From the NCBI RefSeq assembly GCF_017569225.1, contig NZ_CP071868.1, positions 4,030,001 to 4,094,000 on the forward strand: a stretch of 64,000 bases of DNA. Reading direction: 5' to 3'. A model generated the notes under the pieces. That model did no database searches and was not told the DNA's origin. It worked only from the letters and a program-made list of their open reading frames with translations. Source of the DNA: Pengzhenrongella sicca (GTDB lineage: Bacteria; Actinomycetota; Actinomycetes; Actinomycetales; Cellulomonadaceae). Positions 13,581-37,287 of this stretch are shown one piece after another. The stretch's first letter is position 1, and each line of letters opens with the position of its first letter. A program made the position numbers and the translations under genes.

Positions 13581-14438
13581 ATGGGCATGCCTTCCACCGG
13601 CGGACGACTGCTGTCGATCGGCGAGTTCTCGCGGCTGTCCCGGATCAGCGTCCGGATGCTGCGGCACTACGACGAGCACGGCGTCCTGCCCCCGACCCGG
13701 ACCGACCCCGGCTCGGGGTATCGGTTCTACTCGGCGGACCTCCTGCGCACCTCGGCCCGGATCTGTGCGCTCCGGGACGTCGGGCTCGGGGTCGCCGAGC
13801 TCGCGGCGTGCGTGCCGCTGCTCGACGAGCCCGCGCTGCTGCGCGCGGTGCTCCAGGAGCAGCGGGCCAGGCTCGAGGTCGACGCCGCCGCCGTCGCGAG
13901 CCGGATCCGGAAGGTTGTCCACCTGATCGACAGCCTGGAGGCACCTGCCATGTCCATCGACACCAACCAGCCCACCGAGATCATCCAGCGCGACCTGCCG
14001 GCCCGCATCGTCGCCGCCGTCCGCGACACGATCGGCGACTACTCCGCCGAGGGGCTGCTCTGGCAGCGGCTCATGAGCGGCCTGCCCGCGACGGGCGCGC
14101 GCGTCGCGGAGCGGCCGCTCGTCGCCGCGGTCTTCCACGACGAGAGCTTCGTCGAGTCCGACGCCGACGTCGAGGTCCAGATCGACGTCACCGGCCCGTT
14201 CGAGAGCGCCGCCGGTGTCCGGTGCGTCGAGGTTCCCGCGCTGCGCGTGGCGCAGGCCACGCTGCACGGCAGCTACGACGGCATCGGGTCCGCCGTCGAG
14301 GCGCTCGGCCGCTGGATCGGGGAGCACGACTACGCGATCGCCGGCCCGATGCTGAACGTCTACGTCGTCGGCCCGCCGCAGGAGCCGGATCCGGCGAGCT
14401 GGCTCACGGAGGTCTGCGTCCCGATCCACAAGGCCTGA
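13581..14438 (+). CDS. MerR-family regulator with GyrI-like effector-binding domain
   Basis: 285 residues. Residues about 9-75 form the winged helix: LLSIGEFSRLSRISVRMLRHYDEHGVLPP then GSGYRFYS. A helical dimerization stretch follows (LRAVLQEQRARLEVDAAAVASRIRKVVHLIDSLE). The second half, from IIQRDLPARIVAAVRDT to WLTEVCVPIHK, is a GyrI/AraC-E-like effector pocket as in BmrR-type multidrug sensors. It likely senses a small organic ligand. No transporter is adjacent; the neighbouring target may be itself only. Both this gene and the upstream DUF559 gene sit between the inverted repeat elements. Confidence 0.88.
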   Translation: MGMPSTGGRLLSIGEFSRLSRISVRMLRHYDEHGVLPPTRTDPGSGYRFYSADLLRTSARICALRDVGLGVAELAACVPLLDEPALLRAVLQEQRARLEVDAAAVASRIRKVVHLIDSLEAPAMSIDTNQPTEIIQRDLPARIVAAVRDTIGDYSAEGLLWQRLMSGLPATGARVAERPLVAAVFHDESFVESDADVEVQIDVTGPFESAAGVRCVEVPALRVAQATLHGSYDGIGSAVEALGRWIGEHDYAIAGPMLNVYVVGPPQEPDPASWLTEVCVPIHKA

Positions 14439-14454
14439 CGAACCCGGCAGGGGC

Positions 14455-14545
14455 GTGAGGTAGTCCATCCGCGGCGAGAACGTCCATCGGCAGGCACTAC
14501 TTCACCGCAAATGGACTACTTCACCGCTGATGGACTACCTCGGCC
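14455..14545. repeat. Palindromic repeat element, copy 2 (inverted relative to copy 1)
   Basis: Contains GTGAGGTAGTCCATCCGCG, then a degenerate unit, then CAGGCACTACTTCACCGC and two ATGGACTAC-type units. The complement of copy 1 aligns with it over about 90 bp with scattered changes. Directly followed by a run of CCGG/GGCC repeats (14560-14597). Confidence 0.8.
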
Positions 14546-14621
14546 GCCGGGGTCGTGCGGGCTGGCCGGCTGGCCGGCCGGCCGGCCGGCCGGCCGGTGG
14601 CAGGTGGCAGGTGGAGCCCGG

Positions 14622-16025
14622 CTACAGCTTCTTGCCCGGGTTCAGGATGGCCGTCGGGTCGAACGCCTGCTTGATCCGGCGCTGGAGGTCGCGCACCGTC
14701 GGGCCCAGCTCCGCGTCGAGGGCCACGAGCTTCTCGACGCCGATGCCGTGCTCGCCGGTCACCGTGCCGCCCAGCTCGGCCGCCAGGTCGAGGATCTGGC
14801 GGTGCACCCGCTGGGCCGCGGCGACCTGGGCCGGGTCCGCGGGGTCGAACGCGATGACGGGGTGCACGTTGCCGTCGCCGATGTGCCCGCCGGTGCCGAC
14901 GGTCACGCCGGAACCGGCCGCGAGCGCGGCCAGCCGCTCGATCAGCTCGGGCAGGCGCGACCGCGGCACCGCGACGTCCTCGTTGAGGCTCGCGCCCCGC
15001 AGGGCCTGCATCGCGGGCTGGAACGCCCGCCGCGCCGCGAGCAGCGCGTCGAGCCGGTCGGGCTCCGTCGCGAGGTCAACCGTGAGCGCCGCGCGCTCGT
15101 GCGCCGCCCGGGCGTACGCCGCGACGTCGGCCGAGCCGCCCTCACGCGCATCCGTCAGGACGAGCAGCAGCGCGTGCGCGCCCGCGGGCAGGGTCGACGT
15201 CGGGTCGTACGCGGAGATCGCCGCGAGCACCACCGAGTCGAGCAGCTCGAGCGTGCTCGGGCGGTGCGGTCCGGCCATGATCGCGTTGGCCGCCGCAAGC
15301 GCGCCGGCGACGGTCGCGAACGTCGCGCAGACCCCCTGCGTCGGGCCCGGCGCAGGCAGGAGCGCGAGCGTCGCCTCGGTGACGATCGCGAGCGTGCCCT
15401 CCGAGCCCACGACCAGGCCCGTCAGGTCGAGGCCGCCGACCGCCTTGACCGTCGGCGGGCGCGTGCGCACGATCTGGCCGTCGGCGAGCACGACCTCGAG
15501 CGAGCGCACGAAGTCCCGCGTCACGCCGTACTTCACGCAGCGCATGCCGCCCGCGTTGGTCGCGATGTTGCCGCCGATGGTGCACCTCGAGCTCGAGGCC
15601 GGGTCCGGCGGGTAGAACAGCCCCCGCTCGGCGACCGCGCGGGCGAGGTCGTCCGTGACGACGCCGGGCTGCACGACGGCGACCTGGTCGACGGCGTCGA
15701 TCCGCACGATCGCGGCCATCGCCTCGAGCGAGACGAGAATCGCGCCGTCGACGGCGTTGGCCCCGCCCGCGAGCCCGCTGAGGGCGCCCTGGGGCACGAG
15801 CGGGACGCCGTGCGCGTGGGCGATGCGCGCAATCGCGCTGACCTGCGCCGTCGTCGACGGCAGGACGAGCGCCAGCGCGACCCCCGGGGCCGCGGCGCCG
15901 GCGGCGTCCGACGACCGCGCCAGCACGGCGGCGGGGTCGGTGACGACGGCGCCGGCCGGCAGCGCGGCGCGCAGCTGCGCGAGCACCTGCACGCCAGCCA
16001 CGCCAACCATGCCCGCGCCGCTCAC
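14622..16025 (-). CDS. FAD-binding oxidase, GlcD/D-lactate dehydrogenase type
   Basis: 467 residues. FAD-linked oxidase (PF01565) with LVPQGALSGLAGGANA, the PP-loop region FYPPDPASSSRCTIGGNIATNAGGMRCVKYG, and the C-terminal FAD-oxidase domain with GHIGDGNVHPVIAF and GEHGIGVEK, all typical of glycolate oxidase subunit GlcD and D-lactate dehydrogenases. Oxidises a 2-hydroxy acid. GTG at 16025 overlaps the stop of the LldD-type gene (GTGA); an ATG at 16010 is an alternative start. The pair could convert both D- and L-hydroxy acids to the keto acid. Confidence 0.88.
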   Translation of the reverse strand: MSGAGMVGVAGVQVLAQLRAALPAGAVVTDPAAVLARSSDAAGAAAPGVALALVLPSTTAQVSAIARIAHAHGVPLVPQGALSGLAGGANAVDGAILVSLEAMAAIVRIDAVDQVAVVQPGVVTDDLARAVAERGLFYPPDPASSSRCTIGGNIATNAGGMRCVKYGVTRDFVRSLEVVLADGQIVRTRPPTVKAVGGLDLTGLVVGSEGTLAIVTEATLALLPAPGPTQGVCATFATVAGALAAANAIMAGPHRPSTLELLDSVVLAAISAYDPTSTLPAGAHALLLVLTDAREGGSADVAAYARAAHERAALTVDLATEPDRLDALLAARRAFQPAMQALRGASLNEDVAVPRSRLPELIERLAALAAGSGVTVGTGGHIGDGNVHPVIAFDPADPAQVAAAQRVHRQILDLAAELGGTVTGEHGIGVEKLVALDAELGPTVRDLQRRIKQAFDPTAILNPGKKL

Positions 16026-27447: not shown

Positions 27448-27532
27448 GGAGGATTCGCCTAGTGGCCTATGGCGCACGCTTGGAAAGCGTGTTGGGTGAA
27501 AGCCCTCGGGGGTTCGAATCCCCCATCCTCCG
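27448..27532 (+). tRNA. tRNA-Ser (GGA)
   Basis: 85 nt. Acceptor arm GGAGGAT (27448-27454) pairs with ATCCTCC (27525-27531), discriminator G. Anticodon loop CTTGGAAAG gives GGA, read as serine. The long variable arm and T arm GGGGGTTCGAATCCCCC are clear. CCA is not encoded. The 3' half is the target of integration: it is repeated exactly at 33719-33773. Confidence 0.95.
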
Positions 27533-27533
27533 C
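27479..27533 (+). repeat. attL-like direct repeat (tRNA 3' half)
   Basis: 55 bp from the anticodon loop to just past the tRNA end, identical to 33719-33773. Retains the functional tRNA. Confidence 0.9.
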
Positions 27534-27539
27534 CGCGCG

Positions 27540-28025: not shown

Positions 28026-28265
28026 GTGGCCGCTGATCTCGACAGCGCGACGGACGTCTATGAGCCTCAGCGCTACGAGGCGACACCGGACCCCGTCGGC
28101 CGACGCGACCGCGTCCCAGGTCACCCAGAGCTCGTGTCATACCGCCTCGCAAGCCCGCGAGAGACACCAGACCAGACGATTGAACTGGTAGTCCGAATCG
28201 TCAAGTCCACCTCTCGCGAGGACCGCGCTAGGCGGGCGACAGAAATCCGCGCCCGCGTTCGCTGA
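28026..28265 (+). CDS. Small hypothetical protein
   Basis: 79 residues, starting VAADLDSATDVYEP and ending in an Arg-rich helix (STSREDRARRATEIRARVR). GTG start with GGAG 8 nt upstream. No family recognised. Its 3' end overlaps the convergent SIR2 gene by 38 nt, which is unusual and lowers confidence that it is real. Confidence 0.4.
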   Translation: MAADLDSATDVYEPQRYEATPDPVGRRDRVPGHPELVSYRLASPRETPDQTIELVVRIVKSTSREDRARRATEIRARVR

Positions 28266-29862
28266 CAAGACTATCTATTTCGACCAGGTTCGCGATCGTG
28301 TTCGGGGTAACCCGGGACAATTTGTGATCTGGAGCGTGCATCCTCAGAACCATCACACCCACCGGGATCTCGTGGTACGGCGCAGCGTCCAAGATCACTG
28401 GAGTAGCCAGCGTGTGTGTCCACCGATCATCCGAGCGCTCATTGTCTCTTGCGAAGACCGGTCCGCGCTGCGCAAACGCGCGAACCGCCGGATGCGTGGC
28501 GCGCTGCTCTATTCGCACCCGGTGGGGCCAGTAGGCACTCCCGCTGAGCCAGACGGACTGAGAGTTGCACCAGAGTTCGAGGACGCGCGGTGCGCTCGAG
28601 CGATCCATCTCGGGACGGACCCAGATTTCGGCCTTGAGATGGTCTGAGTCAAAAACGTGCTCTGCCTGTATCTCCATTGCCAGATTCTGGAGCCCAATGG
28701 TGACTTCGCGCCTACACTCGTCAGACAAATACTTCGGGCTGAAAGCGCGCCACCAGAGAGCTAGGCGATCCAGGTACGGGTCGGGGTCGCCTCCTGACAT
28801 CTCGACGGCAGCCGAGTGGCGAACCTCGTGCACGAATTGATAGACCTGACCAAAGAAGTCGGGGGTCAGGACCGAGATTCCCAATTGCTTCCCTCGACCG
28901 TCGCGCAAGTTCTCCATCGCAGGCAGACCCAACTCCGGTACCGACGCGAACGCACCGTCCCCCTCGGCCGGAAGCAACGCGATGCGCGAGGTCCGCCTGT
29001 CCTTGTACCGCGTGCGCCGCACGTAATTGATGATGTTGTGGTCTCGCAGCGAGCTCCCGAGGATCAGAGTCGCACCCTGATCAAATCTTGAAGCCACATA
29101 GTCGCGGAACGGTCCCTGATGCGTCCATGCCACATAATCGGACTCGGAGAAGATGGGATCAACCGACGGACCGCGACGGGGAATGAAGCCGTGTATGTGA
29201 ACGATCGGCACGGTGTCGGGAGAGTGACCCGCGGGCGGCGTCTTTCCAAACACGCGGAACTTGACGCCGAGCTGGCGGAGGCGACGTTTCAAGTCGGGGT
29301 CGTTCTTTACGGTTTCACGCAGAACGTCGTCGAAGTTGGTTGAAACGATGTGCAGATCATTCTCCGAGTCGAGAGATTTCAACACCGCGGCCAAGAGGAG
29401 GACTTCCCGCGCAAGGGAGGGTGGGTGCGCGAAGTCTCGATCTCTTCCGGTGACCGGATCGACGTAAATGATCGAGCGAATGAGATTGTCGCGCCGCGCC
29501 CTCGCCTTCCGTTCGTCGCCCGCTTCCAGATCCAGGCAGATCTGATCAATCATGGTCGCAACCGGGAGTTGGAAGGAATTGTTCAATACCGCCGTGGCAA
29601 ATTCGGACTCCAGGCCGCGCAGCACCGACCACTTGGGAGCGCCCGTCGCAATAAGATCACGCACAAGTAGCGCGAGGCCTTGCCGCACGAGTTCACTCCA
29701 TGGCGGAACGTTTTGGTCGATGCTTACGCCTGCTCCAACGAAGATCGTCAATCGTTCCGAGAAAGCGACTTCAGAAATTGCCCACTCTGTTGCCTCGTCT
29801 CCGAAGAATCCGACGCGAAAGTCTCGGGAAAGGTTCGGCCCGTGGTCATCTGGATCTGCCAA
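28228..29862 (-). CDS. SIR2-family protein with possible GAF-like C-terminal domain
   Basis: About 544 residues from a TTG start; the start is unsure (GTG at 29916 is the next choice). The N-terminal half is a SIR2-like NAD-binding domain: IFVGAGVSID (about 40-49), STNFDDVL (174-181), VHIHGFIPRRG (221-231, catalytic His) and LILGSSLRDHNI (267-278). From about residue 375 a mixed alpha/beta region (THPAVRAFAQRGPVF to IPVGVMVLRMHAP) resembles GAF domains by eye only. SIR2 domains in phage defence (for example DSR, Thoeris ThsA, SIR2-pAgo) destroy NAD; that role is inferred from the island context. Confidence 0.78.
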   Translation of the reverse strand: MADPDDHGPNLSRDFRVGFFGDEATEWAISEVAFSERLTIFVGAGVSIDQNVPPWSELVRQGLALLVRDLIATGAPKWSVLRGLESEFATAVLNNSFQLPVATMIDQICLDLEAGDERKARARRDNLIRSIIYVDPVTGRDRDFAHPPSLAREVLLLAAVLKSLDSENDLHIVSTNFDDVLRETVKNDPDLKRRLRQLGVKFRVFGKTPPAGHSPDTVPIVHIHGFIPRRGPSVDPIFSESDYVAWTHQGPFRDYVASRFDQGATLILGSSLRDHNIINYVRRTRYKDRRTSRIALLPAEGDGAFASVPELGLPAMENLRDGRGKQLGISVLTPDFFGQVYQFVHEVRHSAAVEMSGGDPDPYLDRLALWWRAFSPKYLSDECRREVTIGLQNLAMEIQAEHVFDSDHLKAEIWVRPEMDRSSAPRVLELWCNSQSVWLSGSAYWPHRVRIEQRATHPAVRAFAQRGPVFARDNERSDDRWTHTLATPVILDAAPYHEIPVGVMVLRMHAPDHKLSRVTPNTIANLVEIDSLVSERGRGFLSPA

Positions 29863-30069
29863 TGCGCTCTCATCTCTACGGCCGCGGCGTCGTTGCCCGA
29901 GTAGGAGTATTACCACAACCTGGCAACTCGCGTCCGAACGCGGACGCGACGGGGAAGGGGCCAGGGCTTGTTGAAAGTCGGGTCGGCGCTCGTCAGCGTG
30001 CTGACAAGGCCCATTATCGCGTAAAGACCCGCCGCGATGGCCACATCCCGCTCGGCGAGAACGAGCTCG

Positions 30070-30480
30070 TCGAGCTTGGCACGGGCCGGCCACGATCCCG
30101 CGGCGCCCGGCACGCGTTCGCGCCGATCTTGCCCTTGGGGACTCGCGCCGTGATCGCGGGGTGCTGCCCGGTCGCGGCGATCACGGTCTCGGCCCAGGAC
30201 CTGCCGTCCTGGCAGGCTCACCGGGTGGGTGCGCTTCGTCGGCCACGGCTCTCCCGGCTATCGTCCGGGACCCTCATCGCGCTCGACCCCACACTCTGGA
30301 CGTTGTCCTGGGTTTCAGGCTCGCCGCCCGCCGAGCTCTTCGACCGGGATGCTGGCTCCGATGCGTGACGGCAAGACCGCACGCGGCGCGCCGCTCTGAC
30401 GGGACCAGGCTGCGTCTGGCCGCCTCCTTGGACCATCCCAGCGGGACGGCTCAGGCCCAGGCCGAGGGCGCGGCGGCCGC
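30070..30480 (+). pseudogene. ISAs1-family transposase remnant, N-terminal part
   Basis: In broken frames the DNA encodes GARHAFAPILPLGTRAVIAG, then AITVSAQDLPSWQAHRVG, then TLIALDPTL and DGKTARGA/RRSDGTRLRLAASLDHPSGT, the order seen in the first 170 residues of ISAs1 transposases. Several frameshifts and a lost start show that it is dead. The remnant stops exactly at the 3' end of the SIR2-TPR gene. The matching C-terminal part is at 33040-33610, beyond that gene. Confidence 0.7.
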
Positions 30481-30487
30481 GCCAGGC

Positions 30488-32914
30488 CTACAGCCGAAGT
30501 TCGTCGATTGCTGCCCGCACGGGTTGCTCCCACTCGGTTCCATCGAAGACCAAGAGCGCCTCGTGAAGGAGCGCGCTCCGCCTGCCTAAGTCGACCGCCT
30601 CCGTGAGAACTGTCGCTAGGCGCAACTTGACCACAGCGCTATCCAGAGGAGAGTCCGCAAGCGACGGATGAGCGAGCAGCCGCTCGATCTCCCTCTGCGC
30701 CTCCCGCGGATGCACGTCGCCCGCGAGCGCTCGTTGCTCGAGGACTAGCGCGCGCCTCGCGATGATCGGGGGAACGTGGCTACCGAATGCTGACGCCTCT
30801 AGGGCGTCCAGCAGAGACACTGCCCGCTCGACATCCCCCGCCCTAACGTGTGAATCTACGGCGTAGATTCCCGCGCGGGCCGACTCGCTAATGTCGTTGA
30901 CCAAGGCGAATCCAACGCTCGCCACTGTGAAGAGTCTTCCTGCAGACCCAAAGTCACCGGACCGATGGATTTCCTTCCCTGTTTGCGCTATACGGCGCGC
31001 GACCTCCGCGGCCACATCGACTATGCATGGATGCAGGTGAGGCACGGGACCCCCTGGAGGGAGGGGAATGTCCGGAATCTCGGACACGCTGAACGCCAGT
31101 CGGCCACCGAAGAGAGCTTCGACACAGACTACGACAAAGAGGGCGGCAAGGTCTGGCGGTCCGTGCTTTCGGCGTAGATCCCCCATCTGGCGGGAAAGGC
31201 GCCCGTTTGGCGCCTCCGCACATGCGCACACTTCCCAAAGCACTTGCGCAAGCAGGGCACCGTCGCCCTCAAGTTCGACTTGAACGTGCTCCATGAGTTG
31301 CTCGATCCGGATCGTTCGATTCGTCTCCGGTCCGCCGTCGATCCTTGGGTCGGATGGATCACTCGCAGTACCGTTGAGCCACGCGGAATAGCGCTCGAGG
31401 CCCAATTTGGCGAGCGCATTGGCATACTGAGTGTGCGCACCGTCGGCCGCAAGCAGATCTCCATACTCGACAAACAGACTCCGTGACTCAAGAAAAGCGA
31501 GCGCTGCGCGACGCCAATCTCTTCGGCCGGCCGATACTAGCCCATTCAGAAGCCGCAATTGCGCACGACGGGCCATCGCGGCGCCCGCCCCATGATCGAC
31601 TGCGACCAACGCGGTTCTTGCGATGCCTGCTGCGACCTCCGCTCCCGCAAGATCACCGACGAGCACCCTGGCTCTTCCTAGATTGACGAGTGTTCCCGAG
31701 AGATTGAGGCGTCTCTCGAGTCGCTCCTTCTCGCTGGACTCTTCTGGAAGAACCGACTGAAGTTGCAGAGAATTGTTAAGATCCTCGAACGCCGTTCTCA
31801 GCACCGCTGCGATAGCCTCGTCGTCCGCAACAACATCTGGGAGGTCGCCGAGGGCGTCCGCGCCCATCTGAGCTAGAACGGCAGCGCGTGTGGCGAGCTC
31901 GGCGCCGGTCTCTGCTTCCTGAGGCACGCGGAGTGCGTGTCGCCGCAGCATCGCCCGTAGGCGTTGGCTGGCATTGGTGTCCCCCTGGACTCGCATGATC
32001 CGGGCAAGTGCAACGCCGTAGAGGATCGGGTCCAGGTTTGAACCGTCGAACCACGAAGCCACCGAAGGGGACTGGATGACGGGGACCCGGCTGCGGGGCG
32101 CCCCATCTGCGAACCGGAGCAGGAAGTCGGGCAGGTCGGCGGCCACGACCCTGCCTTCCTTGGCCAGTGCGAGCAGCCTGCTGACGTTCTCGAGTACGTG
32201 ACCGTCCCGTGAGAGCCAGGTCACGTGCGAAAGGCCTTGGGCAAGTGCGGCCTCAAGTCCCAGGTAGTCGCGGCCCAAGGTGAGATCGTAGCCCGAGAAG
32301 CCGGCCACGAGCAGCGGATGTCGGCAGAGGGACCGGCTGAGCCACGACTTCCACGAAACGTCGATTCCGGACGCCTTCTGACGTGCTAAGTCGACGAGGC
32401 TAGCGCTTCGTTCCACCGAGCCGTGCACCTTCACGACCAGCAGGCCGCTCGGGTCGTCGACAATCTTCGGCGGCGCAGAATTCTTTGGCACCAGAACGCG
32501 ATGGTCAACTCCCGCGGCCCCGAGCGCCCGCTCGATCAATGTGTCGAAGTTCGTCGTGACTATAAGCCTGACGGTACCTCGGCGCGCCAGATCGGCCAGC
32601 GCCCAGTGGCCTGCGTTGGGCAGTTCGCCGTCAAGATGGCGCAGTGCATCGAACCAGTAGTCGCGCGCAAACGCATCGGAGACGATTTCGCTGAAGCCCG
32701 TGACTGTGTCCCGCGCCAACGCGAGACGAGCGACGTCCTCGTGGACTTCGTTGCTGGTAGGCAGCACTGTGAGGAGGCGAGACTTCATCTCCGTCAGTAG
32801 TTGCTCGTTGAATCCCATCCAGCTCGGGACATTGGAGGGCGGTGCCATCGATAGTCCCGCCCCGACAAGGACCGAGAGTCCTTCGTTCCGCCAACGATCT
32901 CCGAGGTCGTCCAC
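30488..32914 (-). CDS. SIR2-family protein with TPR-like C-terminal repeats
   Basis: 808 residues. The N-terminal 260 residues are SIR2-like: VLVGAGLSM (16-24), VTTNFDTLIERAL (119-131), VVKVHGSVERS (160-170, His in the active site) and LLVAGFSGYDL (201-211). The region from about 310 to the end is all alpha-helical with repeated A-L-x-x-x-G-x-x-x-x-A patterns as in TPR solenoids (for example RRDWRRAALAFLESRSLFVEYGDLLAADGAH). SIR2 plus helical repeat is a known design of anti-phage NADases in which the repeats sense the phage. GTG start with GGAGG 8 nt upstream. It lies between two halves of a dead transposase. Confidence 0.82.
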   Translation of the reverse strand: MDDLGDRWRNEGLSVLVGAGLSMAPPSNVPSWMGFNEQLLTEMKSRLLTVLPTSNEVHEDVARLALARDTVTGFSEIVSDAFARDYWFDALRHLDGELPNAGHWALADLARRGTVRLIVTTNFDTLIERALGAAGVDHRVLVPKNSAPPKIVDDPSGLLVVKVHGSVERSASLVDLARQKASGIDVSWKSWLSRSLCRHPLLVAGFSGYDLTLGRDYLGLEAALAQGLSHVTWLSRDGHVLENVSRLLALAKEGRVVAADLPDFLLRFADGAPRSRVPVIQSPSVASWFDGSNLDPILYGVALARIMRVQGDTNASQRLRAMLRRHALRVPQEAETGAELATRAAVLAQMGADALGDLPDVVADDEAIAAVLRTAFEDLNNSLQLQSVLPEESSEKERLERRLNLSGTLVNLGRARVLVGDLAGAEVAAGIARTALVAVDHGAGAAMARRAQLRLLNGLVSAGRRDWRRAALAFLESRSLFVEYGDLLAADGAHTQYANALAKLGLERYSAWLNGTASDPSDPRIDGGPETNRTIRIEQLMEHVQVELEGDGALLAQVLWEVCACAEAPNGRLSRQMGDLRRKHGPPDLAALFVVVCVEALFGGRLAFSVSEIPDIPLPPGGPVPHLHPCIVDVAAEVARRIAQTGKEIHRSGDFGSAGRLFTVASVGFALVNDISESARAGIYAVDSHVRAGDVERAVSLLDALEASAFGSHVPPIIARRALVLEQRALAGDVHPREAQREIERLLAHPSLADSPLDSAVVKLRLATVLTEAVDLGRRSALLHEALLVFDGTEWEQPVRAAIDELRL

Positions 32915-33039: not shown

Positions 33040-33610
33040 TGTTCAGTCAGTGCCCATTCAAAGTCAAGCCGGCGCGTGTCAGCGGCGCAACACGCGCCGG
33101 TGATGGTGTTGAAGCCGGACTTGGCTGCTCTCGTCGCAGGTCCGGCCCGGGCACGCCCATCACACCGCTGGCGACGGGCGCCGCGAGCAGCGCGCCGTTC
33201 TGGTCATCACTGCAGTGCACCGGTATTTCCGCTCCCGCACGCCTGCCAGGTCGATCGAATCCTGCGTCGAAGACCTCACGCCCACCGCTCGCCCGCGACA
33301 GCAGGTCGGACTCGTCATCACCGACCTGACCCCCAAGTAGGGCCACGCCCAGCTCGCCGCGCTCGTGCGCGGCCGCTGGGGCATCGAGAATCGCCTGCGC
33401 TGAGTCCGCTACGCGACGTTCGCCGATGACCGCTGCGCGGTGGGCTCCGCGCCGGCCAGATCGAAATGACCACGCTGGGTGTCACCGCGGACAGCCTGTC
33501 CGGCTCGCCGGTCTCCGAGACATCGCCTACGCCCCCGGTGTTCGCAGAGTCCCGACTGACCGACGCCTGACACCCGGAGCTGGCCCGCCAATGCGGTGGC
33601 AGATTCGGTA
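33040..33610 (+). pseudogene. ISAs1-family transposase remnant, C-terminal part
   Basis: One frame reads QVGLVITDLTPK-stop-GHAQLAALVRGRWGIENRLR-stop-VRYATFADDRCAV. The family consensus has Gln at the first stop (TAG at 33338) and Trp at the second (TGA at 33401), so both are single-base nonsense changes. Further pieces (FPLPHACQVDRILRRR before, RLAGLRDIAYA after) sit in other frames. Two premature stops plus frameshifts mean no active transposase. Confidence 0.75.
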
Positions 33611-33718: not shown

Positions 33719-33773
33719 CTTGGAAAGCGTGTTGGGTGAAAGCCCTCGGGGGTTCGAATCCCCCATCCTCCGC
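33719..33773 (+). repeat. attR-like direct repeat (tRNA-Ser 3' half)
   Basis: Exact 55-bp copy of 27479-27533. It lacks the 5' half, so it is not a functional tRNA. Confidence 0.9.
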
Positions 33774-33981: not shown

Positions 33982-34230
33982 ATGAAGACCGCAATCTCGG
34001 TACCCGACGACACCTTCGAGAAGGCGACCCGGCGTGCGCACGATCTCGGGATGAGCCGATCTGAGTTCTTTACCCGCGCCGCGGCCCGGTACCTGGACGA
34101 ACTCGATGCCGAGTCGGTCACCCGTCAGATCGACCTCGCGCTCGCGGCGCGCCCAGGGGCCGACGACGCTGCGTCGGACGCCGTCGACGTCGGGCACCTG
34201 ATCCTCGACGACTCGTCCGGTGACTGGTGA
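33982..34230 (+). CDS. Ribbon-helix-helix antitoxin
   Basis: 82 residues. MKTAISVPDDTFEKATRRAHDLGMSRSEFFTRAAARYLDEL is a ribbon-helix-helix DNA-binding domain of the MazE9/VapB type. The acidic C-terminal tail (DAVDVGHLILDDSSGDW) is the likely toxin-wrapping part. Its stop overlaps the toxin GTG by 4 nt, the usual coupled order with antitoxin first. Confidence 0.88.
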   Translation: MKTAISVPDDTFEKATRRAHDLGMSRSEFFTRAAARYLDELDAESVTRQIDLALAARPGADDAASDAVDVGHLILDDSSGDW

Positions 34231-34568
34231 TCGACCGGGGCGGGATCTACTGGGCGAACCTCGGCGCGCCGGTCGGCTCTCGCCCAGCCAAGCGCCGCCC
34301 CGTCGTGGTGATCTCGGCGCAGACGTACAACCAGAGCCGGCTAGCCACCGTCGTCGCACTCGTCATCACCTCCAACACCGAAATGGCCGCGATGCCGAGC
34401 AACGTGTTCTTGCCCGCCGCGGCAACCGGACTCCCTCGCGACTCCGTCGTGAACGTCACCGCCATCGTGACGCTCAACAAGGCAGACCTGATCGAACAAG
34501 CTGGCCTGACCCCGCTCGCACTGCTGCGCGATATCGACCGCGGCCTCACGAGCTCGCTCGATCTCTGA
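34227..34568 (+). CDS. MazF-type endoribonuclease toxin
   Basis: 113 residues. MIDRGGIYWANLGAPVGSRPAKRRPVVVISAQTYNQSR has the PemK/MazF pattern, including the RPVVVIS strand; VTAIVTLNKADLIEQAGLTP and LLRDIDRGL complete it (PF02452). Cuts mRNA at a short sequence that cannot be predicted here. GTG start. Confidence 0.88.
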   Translation: MIDRGGIYWANLGAPVGSRPAKRRPVVVISAQTYNQSRLATVVALVITSNTEMAAMPSNVFLPAAATGLPRDSVVNVTAIVTLNKADLIEQAGLTPLALLRDIDRGLTSSLDL

Positions 34569-36191: not shown

Positions 36192-37169
36192 TTAAGCACT
36201 CAACCGGTGTTCGGCCCAGTGCTTGCCCAACCAGTCGACCTGTTCGTCCTGCAGCCTCGACTTCAAAGGTTCGTCGTGCAGCCGCGCGTACTGGGGATAC
36301 ATAGCGAGTCCGGGCGCGACGTCGATGCGAAGCCTCGACGGCTGGACCGCGAGCAACCCGTCGTCGAAGAGCCGATGGATGTCCCGTCGCAGCATGAGGC
36401 CACCGTGCTTGAAGTGCGTGCCCAGCTGGGCGTAGCTATACAGGTGGCCAGCCTCCAGGACGCGCACCGGCGCGCGCCCCGTGAATGCGCACACGCTGCC
36501 CTGCGACGCCAGCAACTGTTCACGAAACTGCTGTTGCCCTCTACGGACCCGAACGAGCGCGTGACTGAACCCTTGAGGTGCCTCGACAAGCACGCCGAAC
36601 TCTGATTGCCAATTGACGTCGATGCGCGCAGACACCCGATCGAGCGCGTGACCTGCATCCCTTGCAATGAGCGCCGCGCCGAAGGCGACCCAGTCCAGCG
36701 GGCGCATCGCGTTGATGTCGCCGGCGTTGACCGCGAGGGACCGAATCTCGCCCCCGGTGAAGAATCCGTCCAGCGGAGTCCACGCCGCGTCGTACCTCGC
36801 CCTGTAGCGGAGCACTTCCACGACATCGGGGCTTGGGGTAGCGAACTCGGCGCGGCACTTCATGCACCGGTATCGCGGCTCGCTCTTCTTGCGGTCGCTG
36901 ATTCGCGTGGTGTTGCACGAAGGGCAGCGACTGAGCAGCTTAAGGCCGAGCGTTGCTTTGATCTCCTCGATGACGGAAACGCCAAGGAGTCGCTCCTTGT
37001 CCCAGAGCGCGATTGGATCGCCGACGGCAAGATTCTTGTGGTTCGGGACGTTGCTGTCCCAGGAGTAGTACGCGTCGAACTGATCGTCGTATCCGGAGTT
37101 CCCGCCGTGGCCGCGATTGTCGCCCGCTGCCATGAGCAGCCAGGCTCGCTGTGGGATGCCGCCTTCCAT
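36192..37169 (-). CDS. PUA/EVE-like plus zinc ribbon plus HNH endonuclease
   Basis: 325 residues. N-terminal RAWLLMAAGDN and VGDPIALWDKERLLGVSVIEEI look like a PUA/EVE-type module (known to read modified bases). A zinc ribbon follows (C82, C85, C102, C105). The C-terminus is an HNH domain of the PF13391 type: RVRRGQQQFREQLLASQGSVCAFTG, LEAGHLYSY (His) and HGGLMLRRDIHRLFDDG (His). The family's usual Asn before GLLL is Gly here. Likely a modification-dependent nuclease. Start ATG at 37169; divergent from the helicase at 37301. Confidence 0.75.
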   Translation of the reverse strand: MEGGIPQRAWLLMAAGDNRGHGGNSGYDDQFDAYYSWDSNVPNHKNLAVGDPIALWDKERLLGVSVIEEIKATLGLKLLSRCPSCNTTRISDRKKSEPRYRCMKCRAEFATPSPDVVEVLRYRARYDAAWTPLDGFFTGGEIRSLAVNAGDINAMRPLDWVAFGAALIARDAGHALDRVSARIDVNWQSEFGVLVEAPQGFSHALVRVRRGQQQFREQLLASQGSVCAFTGRAPVRVLEAGHLYSYAQLGTHFKHGGLMLRRDIHRLFDDGLLAVQPSRLRIDVAPGLAMYPQYARLHDEPLKSRLQDEQVDWLGKHWAEHRLSA

Positions 37170-37225
37170 GTGCCACAGCTTGGCACGGCGATTCAACGTT
37201 CTGTGCAACATCGCCGATCGGTAGC

Positions 37226-37243
37226 TGCAGGTGACGGGCCCTT
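37226..37243. repeat. Third copy of half a tRNA-Ser terminator
   Basis: TGCAGGTGACGGGCCCTT matches the right half of the hairpin at 33803-33820 with one change. No complementary left half is present, so it is a fragment. May mark an older insertion boundary. Confidence 0.45.
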
Positions 37244-37287
37244 TTCGCGGTGTCGCGCGGGTGGCTCAGTGGGCGCTCCCCCGCGTG

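Follow-up and report, generated by a model that had tools for sequence, protein, structure and literature searches.

The window analysed here is a stretch of 64,000 nucleotides of the Pengzhenrongella sicca genome (contig NZ_CP071868.1, positions 4,030,001 to 4,094,000). Two intact open reading frames were found where an earlier note, made from the sequence alone, had seen a pair of SIR2 genes; they are called here P1 and P2. Both lie inside an island of 6.2 kb that is enclosed by two att copies at a serine tRNA gene, a setting that the earlier note did not mention (Table 1). The frame of P1 is open up to 30093, and the N-termini of homologues agree with a start near 29862.

Table 1. Features of the tRNA-Ser island and of its two SIR2 genes (positions in the window).
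Feature	Position	Strand	Basis
tRNA-Ser (GGA), intact, integration site at the left island end	27448..27534	+	ARAGORN, Rfam RF00005
Left att repeat, 3' end of the tRNA	27480..27534	+	54-55 bp identical to 33719-33773
P1, SIR2-GAF protein (GAF predicted), 544 aa, TTG start, purine-rich stretch upstream	28228..29862	-	SIR2_2 E 3.1e-12
P1, predicted GAF domain with leading helices, residues 356-544	28231..28797	-	predicted model, PDB matches, GAF match in a homologue
P1, SIR2 domain, about residues 25-352	28807..29790	-	alignment, predicted structure, structural matches
Stretch between P1 and P2	29870..30480	.	no identifiable gene or transposase
P2, SIR2 protein, 808 aa, GTG start, GGAGG-type site upstream	30488..32914	-	SIR2_2 E 3.2e-9
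ISAs1-family transposase remnant, broken by stops	about 33318..33455	+	blastn to annotated ISAs1 transposases, 73-76%
Right att repeat	33719..33773	+	exact copy of the last 54-55 bp of tRNA-Ser(GGA)

The SIR2_2 family (PF13289) was recognised in both proteins, with 47.2 bits for P1 and 37.4 bits for P2 against a Pfam cut-off of 24.5. The SIR2 landmarks reported earlier are in place, namely GAGVS at residue 43, TNFD at 175 and HIHG at 222 in P1, and GAGLS at 18, TNFD at 121 and VHG at 163 in P2. Their SIR2 parts are barely similar to each other (BLASTP E 0.006) and their C-terminal parts are unrelated, as had been claimed. In an alignment of five members of the P1 family, the invariant residues of the SIR2 domain are G43, A44, G45, N176, D178, H222, H224, G225, S271 and D274. 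The domain was confidently modelled by AlphaFold2 with eight sequences, and its closest structures in the PDB are ThsA, DSR2, KomC and Avs5 (Z up to 22) whereas classical sirtuins come lower, at a Z of about 13. By homology to ThsA and DSR2, P1 would cleave NAD+ through N176 and H224. An inactivated DSR2 mutant, H171A, is named in PDB titles, and H171 is presumably the histidine of the HG motif. Searches of PADLOC, NCBIfam and PHROGs gave no confident match for P1.

The last 189 residues of P1 were modelled alone, because the SIR2 domain filled the match list of the full-length model. With 15 sequences, the model reached a pLDDT of 78.6 and a pTM of 0.81, and it runs from two helices through three strands, a further helix and another three strands to a final helix. 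The top two Foldseek matches were GAF domains, 5hl6 (E 1.4e-4) and 1f5m, and after re-alignment with VIA most rows were GAF domains at Z 9.5-11.5, including those of PDE6, PtsP, methionine sulfoxide reductase and DosS. Pfam GAF (PF01590) did not match the sequence of P1 itself; the C-terminus of a relative, L153, reached E 3.4e-4 and 21.6 bits, just below the gathering score of 22.4. The predicted fold and this near-threshold match support the assignment of the C-terminal part of P1 to the GAF domains and bear out the GAF-like end proposed in the earlier note. When the 15 GAF domains of the family were made into a profile, it matched no PDB sequence. The NK...FxxxDE motif of cGMP/cAMP-type domains is missing, NK being absent from all 15, and no cysteine is common to all of them, so that no ligand can be named for the P1 GAF domain. 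Accordingly, a cGMP-type ligand was dropped for lack of the motif, and a cysteine-based domain of the methionine-sulfoxide-reductase type for lack of a conserved cysteine set.

In P2, the SIR2 domain covers about residues 10-260 and is followed by about 500 putatively TPR-like residues. The SIR2 part of the earlier description holds, and the TPR-like end is weakly supported: no Pfam TPR family matched P2 itself, the frame that follows the SIR2 frame of a Rhizobium relative has weak TPR matches (TPR_2 E 0.026), and windows resembling TPR profiles are more numerous in P2 than in shuffled sequence. From composition and these weak profile matches, the C-terminal part of P2 is likely to be TPR-like. 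The SIR2 part matches PDC-S65 of PADLOC and Argonaute-accompanying sirtuins at E 1e-14 to 1e-11, over 70-165 residues only. The closest sequence found is a protein of a Rhizobium plasmid, 32% identical over 230 residues of the SIR2 part. In this nearest relative (CP050566, L075, 1541-8095), the SIR2 and TPR-like parts are carried by two overlapping frames, and the locus also holds FRG-domain, S8 peptidase and metallo-hydrolase-like genes. Another relative, of 675 aa, has a similar layout. No relative of P2 was found in phages or viral contigs. A published tree legend (PMC12700824) names TPR as one of the additional domains in the SIR2_2 subfamily, and the SIR2-TPR members listed there probably share the domain order of P2, although the TPR part of P2 is not recognised by Pfam. 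Since TPR is already listed in this subfamily, P2 is ordinary for its kind.

The anatomy of the locus suggests that the 6.2-kb segment was inserted at tRNA-Ser(GGA) in the manner of elements with a tyrosine integrase. Four observations argue for it: the exact repeat of the tRNA 3' end; beyond the right copy, a flank of ancestral type, with the original downstream terminator of the tRNA and 89% identity over 54 bp to the sequence downstream of the corresponding tRNA in a genome of the same genus; island DNA that, apart from the short terminator, had no match at this tRNA in four genomes of the same genus; and a GC content of 64% inside the island vs 75% to its left. Of the marks of a tRNA-integrated island, the directly repeated tRNA 3' end and the ancestral flank beyond the repeat were thus found, and an integrase of its own was not: no integrase-like frame lies between 27535 and 33718, where P1 and P2 are the only recognisable genes. 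This tRNA-Ser appears to be an insertion hot spot, since another genome (G001) bears a different insertion of 13.8 kb at the same gene (L041, 3953-17786), with a tyrosine integrase at 14044-15264.

A dead transposase had been described between P1 and P2, and this could not be upheld. The gap at 29.9-30.5 kb gave nothing identifiable in blastn searches against plasmids and against the genome itself and related genomes, nor in tblastn searches with two of its frames, and the idea was dropped; the nameable remnant, of an ISAs1 element, sits instead between P2 and the right end of the island. Directly outside the right att copy (33982-34568, plus strand), a frame resembling ribbon-helix-helix antitoxins precedes one for a MazF/PemK toxin (PF02452, E 2.7e-21). 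Further on, a gene at 36192-37211 (minus strand) may serve in defence (PADLOC HNH, E 1.8e-5); its product is of the HNH_2 endonuclease type and includes a stretch resembling a zinc ribbon. Next to this gene, 37223-37245 resembles the downstream terminator of the tRNA-Ser and may be what an earlier insertion at this tRNA left behind.

Profile searches identified 14 further proteins with both SIR2 and GAF domains. All are from Actinomycetota, in which they are scattered; other phyla were covered by a pattern-based search, which reaches few distant relatives. Class-wide and phylum-wide SIR2 matches without GAF were left out of the family by means of a GAF profile. None of 58 other genomes of the same genus, family and order holds a relative of P1, and the SIR2-GAF architecture was present in 4 other genomes of about 394 drawn from the class (about 1%) and in 9 of 339 drawn from one order (3%). 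Relatives of P1 were not found in phages, plasmids or viral contigs. In a tree built on the SIR2 domain only, all 15 GAF-bearing proteins fall in one cluster together with three proteins that lack GAF, and P1 stands beside L153 and L154 (96%). The GAF label changes twice on this tree, vs 13.9 times on average after shuffling, and none of 500 shuffles was as low. This clustering suggests one or two events of fusion or loss.

In one genome (G814), a frame of 188 codons (L157, 7781-8344) carries the GAF domain of the family and no SIR2 domain was found nearby; it looks like a remnant, a split gene or a stand-alone sensor. Two SIR2 proteins near the cluster in the tree have no GAF (L155, 6830-8401, of G965, and L094 of G1038), and in L155 the SIR2 domain is C-terminal, behind an N-terminal domain that is possibly Mrr-like. 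Other SIR2 proteins of Actinomycetota (L051, L057 and L070) are extended at the N-terminus by a long part that may be of macro-domain type.

SIR2-GAF genes mostly stand alone: recombinases apart, neighbours recur only between near-identical elements, according to gene calls made with a simple codon-usage script. Among 89 neighbour proteins, four phage integrases, transposases and one TrwC relaxase were found. Strong PADLOC matches were also observed (PDC-S39, PDC-M41B, PDC-M30B, dGTPase, SoFic, DrmD and subtilase), as raw matches; the presence of defence-type genes beside SIR2-GAF genes is suggestive at the level of a scan without background control. L149 and L150 lie downstream of a Schlafen/AlbA_2 gene. 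One locus (L154, 660-9049) is a possible exception to the stand-alone layout, as an apparent operon in which a protein of 1824 aa, a HEPN_Swt1-like protein and, last, the SIR2-GAF protein are encoded by overlapping or adjacent genes.

SIR2 effectors are known with SLOG, STAND and APAZ parts, in HerA-coupled forms and with long helical sensor parts. ThsA, the SIR2-SLOG protein of Thoeris, is the best structural match of P1, with a Z of 22 over 273 residues of the SIR2 domain. Both proteins end in a domain of small-molecule-sensor type, SLOG in ThsA and GAF in P1, and the TIR gene ThsB is absent from the island. With DSR2 and DSR1, P1 shares a single-gene layout and a SIR2 domain at Z of about 18-20; these are proteins of about 1000 aa with a long C-terminus, a feature that P2 also has, there probably helical, and that P1 lacks. 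A profile search of the kind that the earlier note had proposed as a check gave no match above the cut-off for Dsr1: the NCBIfam model gave P2 9.7 bits vs a cut-off of 1400, and did not match P1. Likewise, the SIR2 domain of P1 resembles those of KomC/HAM-SIR2 (Kongming) and Avs5 (SIR2-STAND) at Z 16-20, but KomC pairs with KomB, which was not found here, and Avs5 has a central STAND NTPase, whereas neither P1 nor P2 has a P-loop or STAND match in Pfam. PDC-S65 and the accessory proteins of SIR2-pAgo match the SIR2 part of P2 moderately, and the island holds no Argonaute. In the openly available papers searched, neither a SIR2 protein with GAF in a phage or antiviral context nor a GAF protein in abortive infection was found; over open papers only, such an absence is weak evidence. 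The SIR2-GAF protein would be an addition to the known SIR2 NADase effectors and not a new kind of system.

The explanation that we favour, at a probability of roughly 0.55, is that the tRNA island carries two independent single-gene SIR2 effectors, P1 being an abortive-infection NADase gated by its GAF domain and P2 one that senses through a solenoid. Homology and context make phage defence plausible for both, and both would probably destroy the NAD of the cell upon viral attack. In P1, phage infection would be sensed by the GAF domain, through a small molecule or an altered state, and the signal would pass to the SIR2 domain via the linking helix or oligomerisation to switch on the cleavage of NAD+. 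As the likely switch, the domain may bind a small molecule made or freed in infection, or it may govern oligomerisation. P2 would work alike, its alpha-solenoid (TPR-like) end sensing a phage or host protein as does the long C-terminal part of DSR2.

That the two genes are independent, as the earlier note had supposed, is supported. They share one island bounded by the tRNA and its repeat, on the same strand and 625 bp apart, which would suit two parts of one cooperating system; yet they are widely separated in the SIR2 tree, the surroundings of the 14 other SIR2-GAF genes yielded nothing like P2, and the relatives of P2 occur in other contexts. On the tree and the neighbourhoods, a joint system was dropped and is given very little credence. 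It is also improbable, though less so, that P1 and P2 serve no defence and act as NAD-dependent regulators or as toxins that stabilise a mobile element. The many roles of SIR2 enzymes, the location on a mobile element and the toxin-antitoxin pair of MazF type on the outer side of the right repeat speak for it, but the closest structures stem from anti-phage systems, SIR2-GAF genes have a patchy spread and defence-type neighbours, and no recurrent antitoxin-like partner stands beside the relatives of P1.

A more serious rival, still on the unlikely side, concerns the GAF domain itself, which might only dimerise or oligomerise while recognition of a phage protein falls to the linker or to the surface of the SIR2 domain. 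GAF domains often dimerise via flanking helices, and the P1 GAF model has such helices (H7-23, H26-47 and H165-186); no known ligand motif is present, and the 25 neighbour families that were listed as most frequent include no nucleotide cyclase. On the other hand, small-molecule binding is the most common role of GAF domains, and the domain is retained throughout the 15-member family despite strong sequence divergence. Filaments or oligomers have been seen in the structures of ThsA, Avs5, KomC and FAM118B (PMC12700824), in keeping with a role in assembly.

Under the favoured reading of P1 as a GAF-gated NADase, the mostly solitary position of SIR2-GAF genes means that the protein may sense a metabolite directly. 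We put forward, tentatively and as less likely than not, that SIR2-GAF proteins form a class of their own, so far undescribed, of anti-phage NADases that act as single genes and in which the GAF domain would directly sense a metabolite or nucleotide linked to infection, with neither a cyclase nor a TIR partner. The family is small and well defined by its 15 sequences, and it is thereby suited to one set of experiments. If the GAF domain is indeed the sensor, a very common ligand-binding module would join bacterial immunity by NAD depletion.
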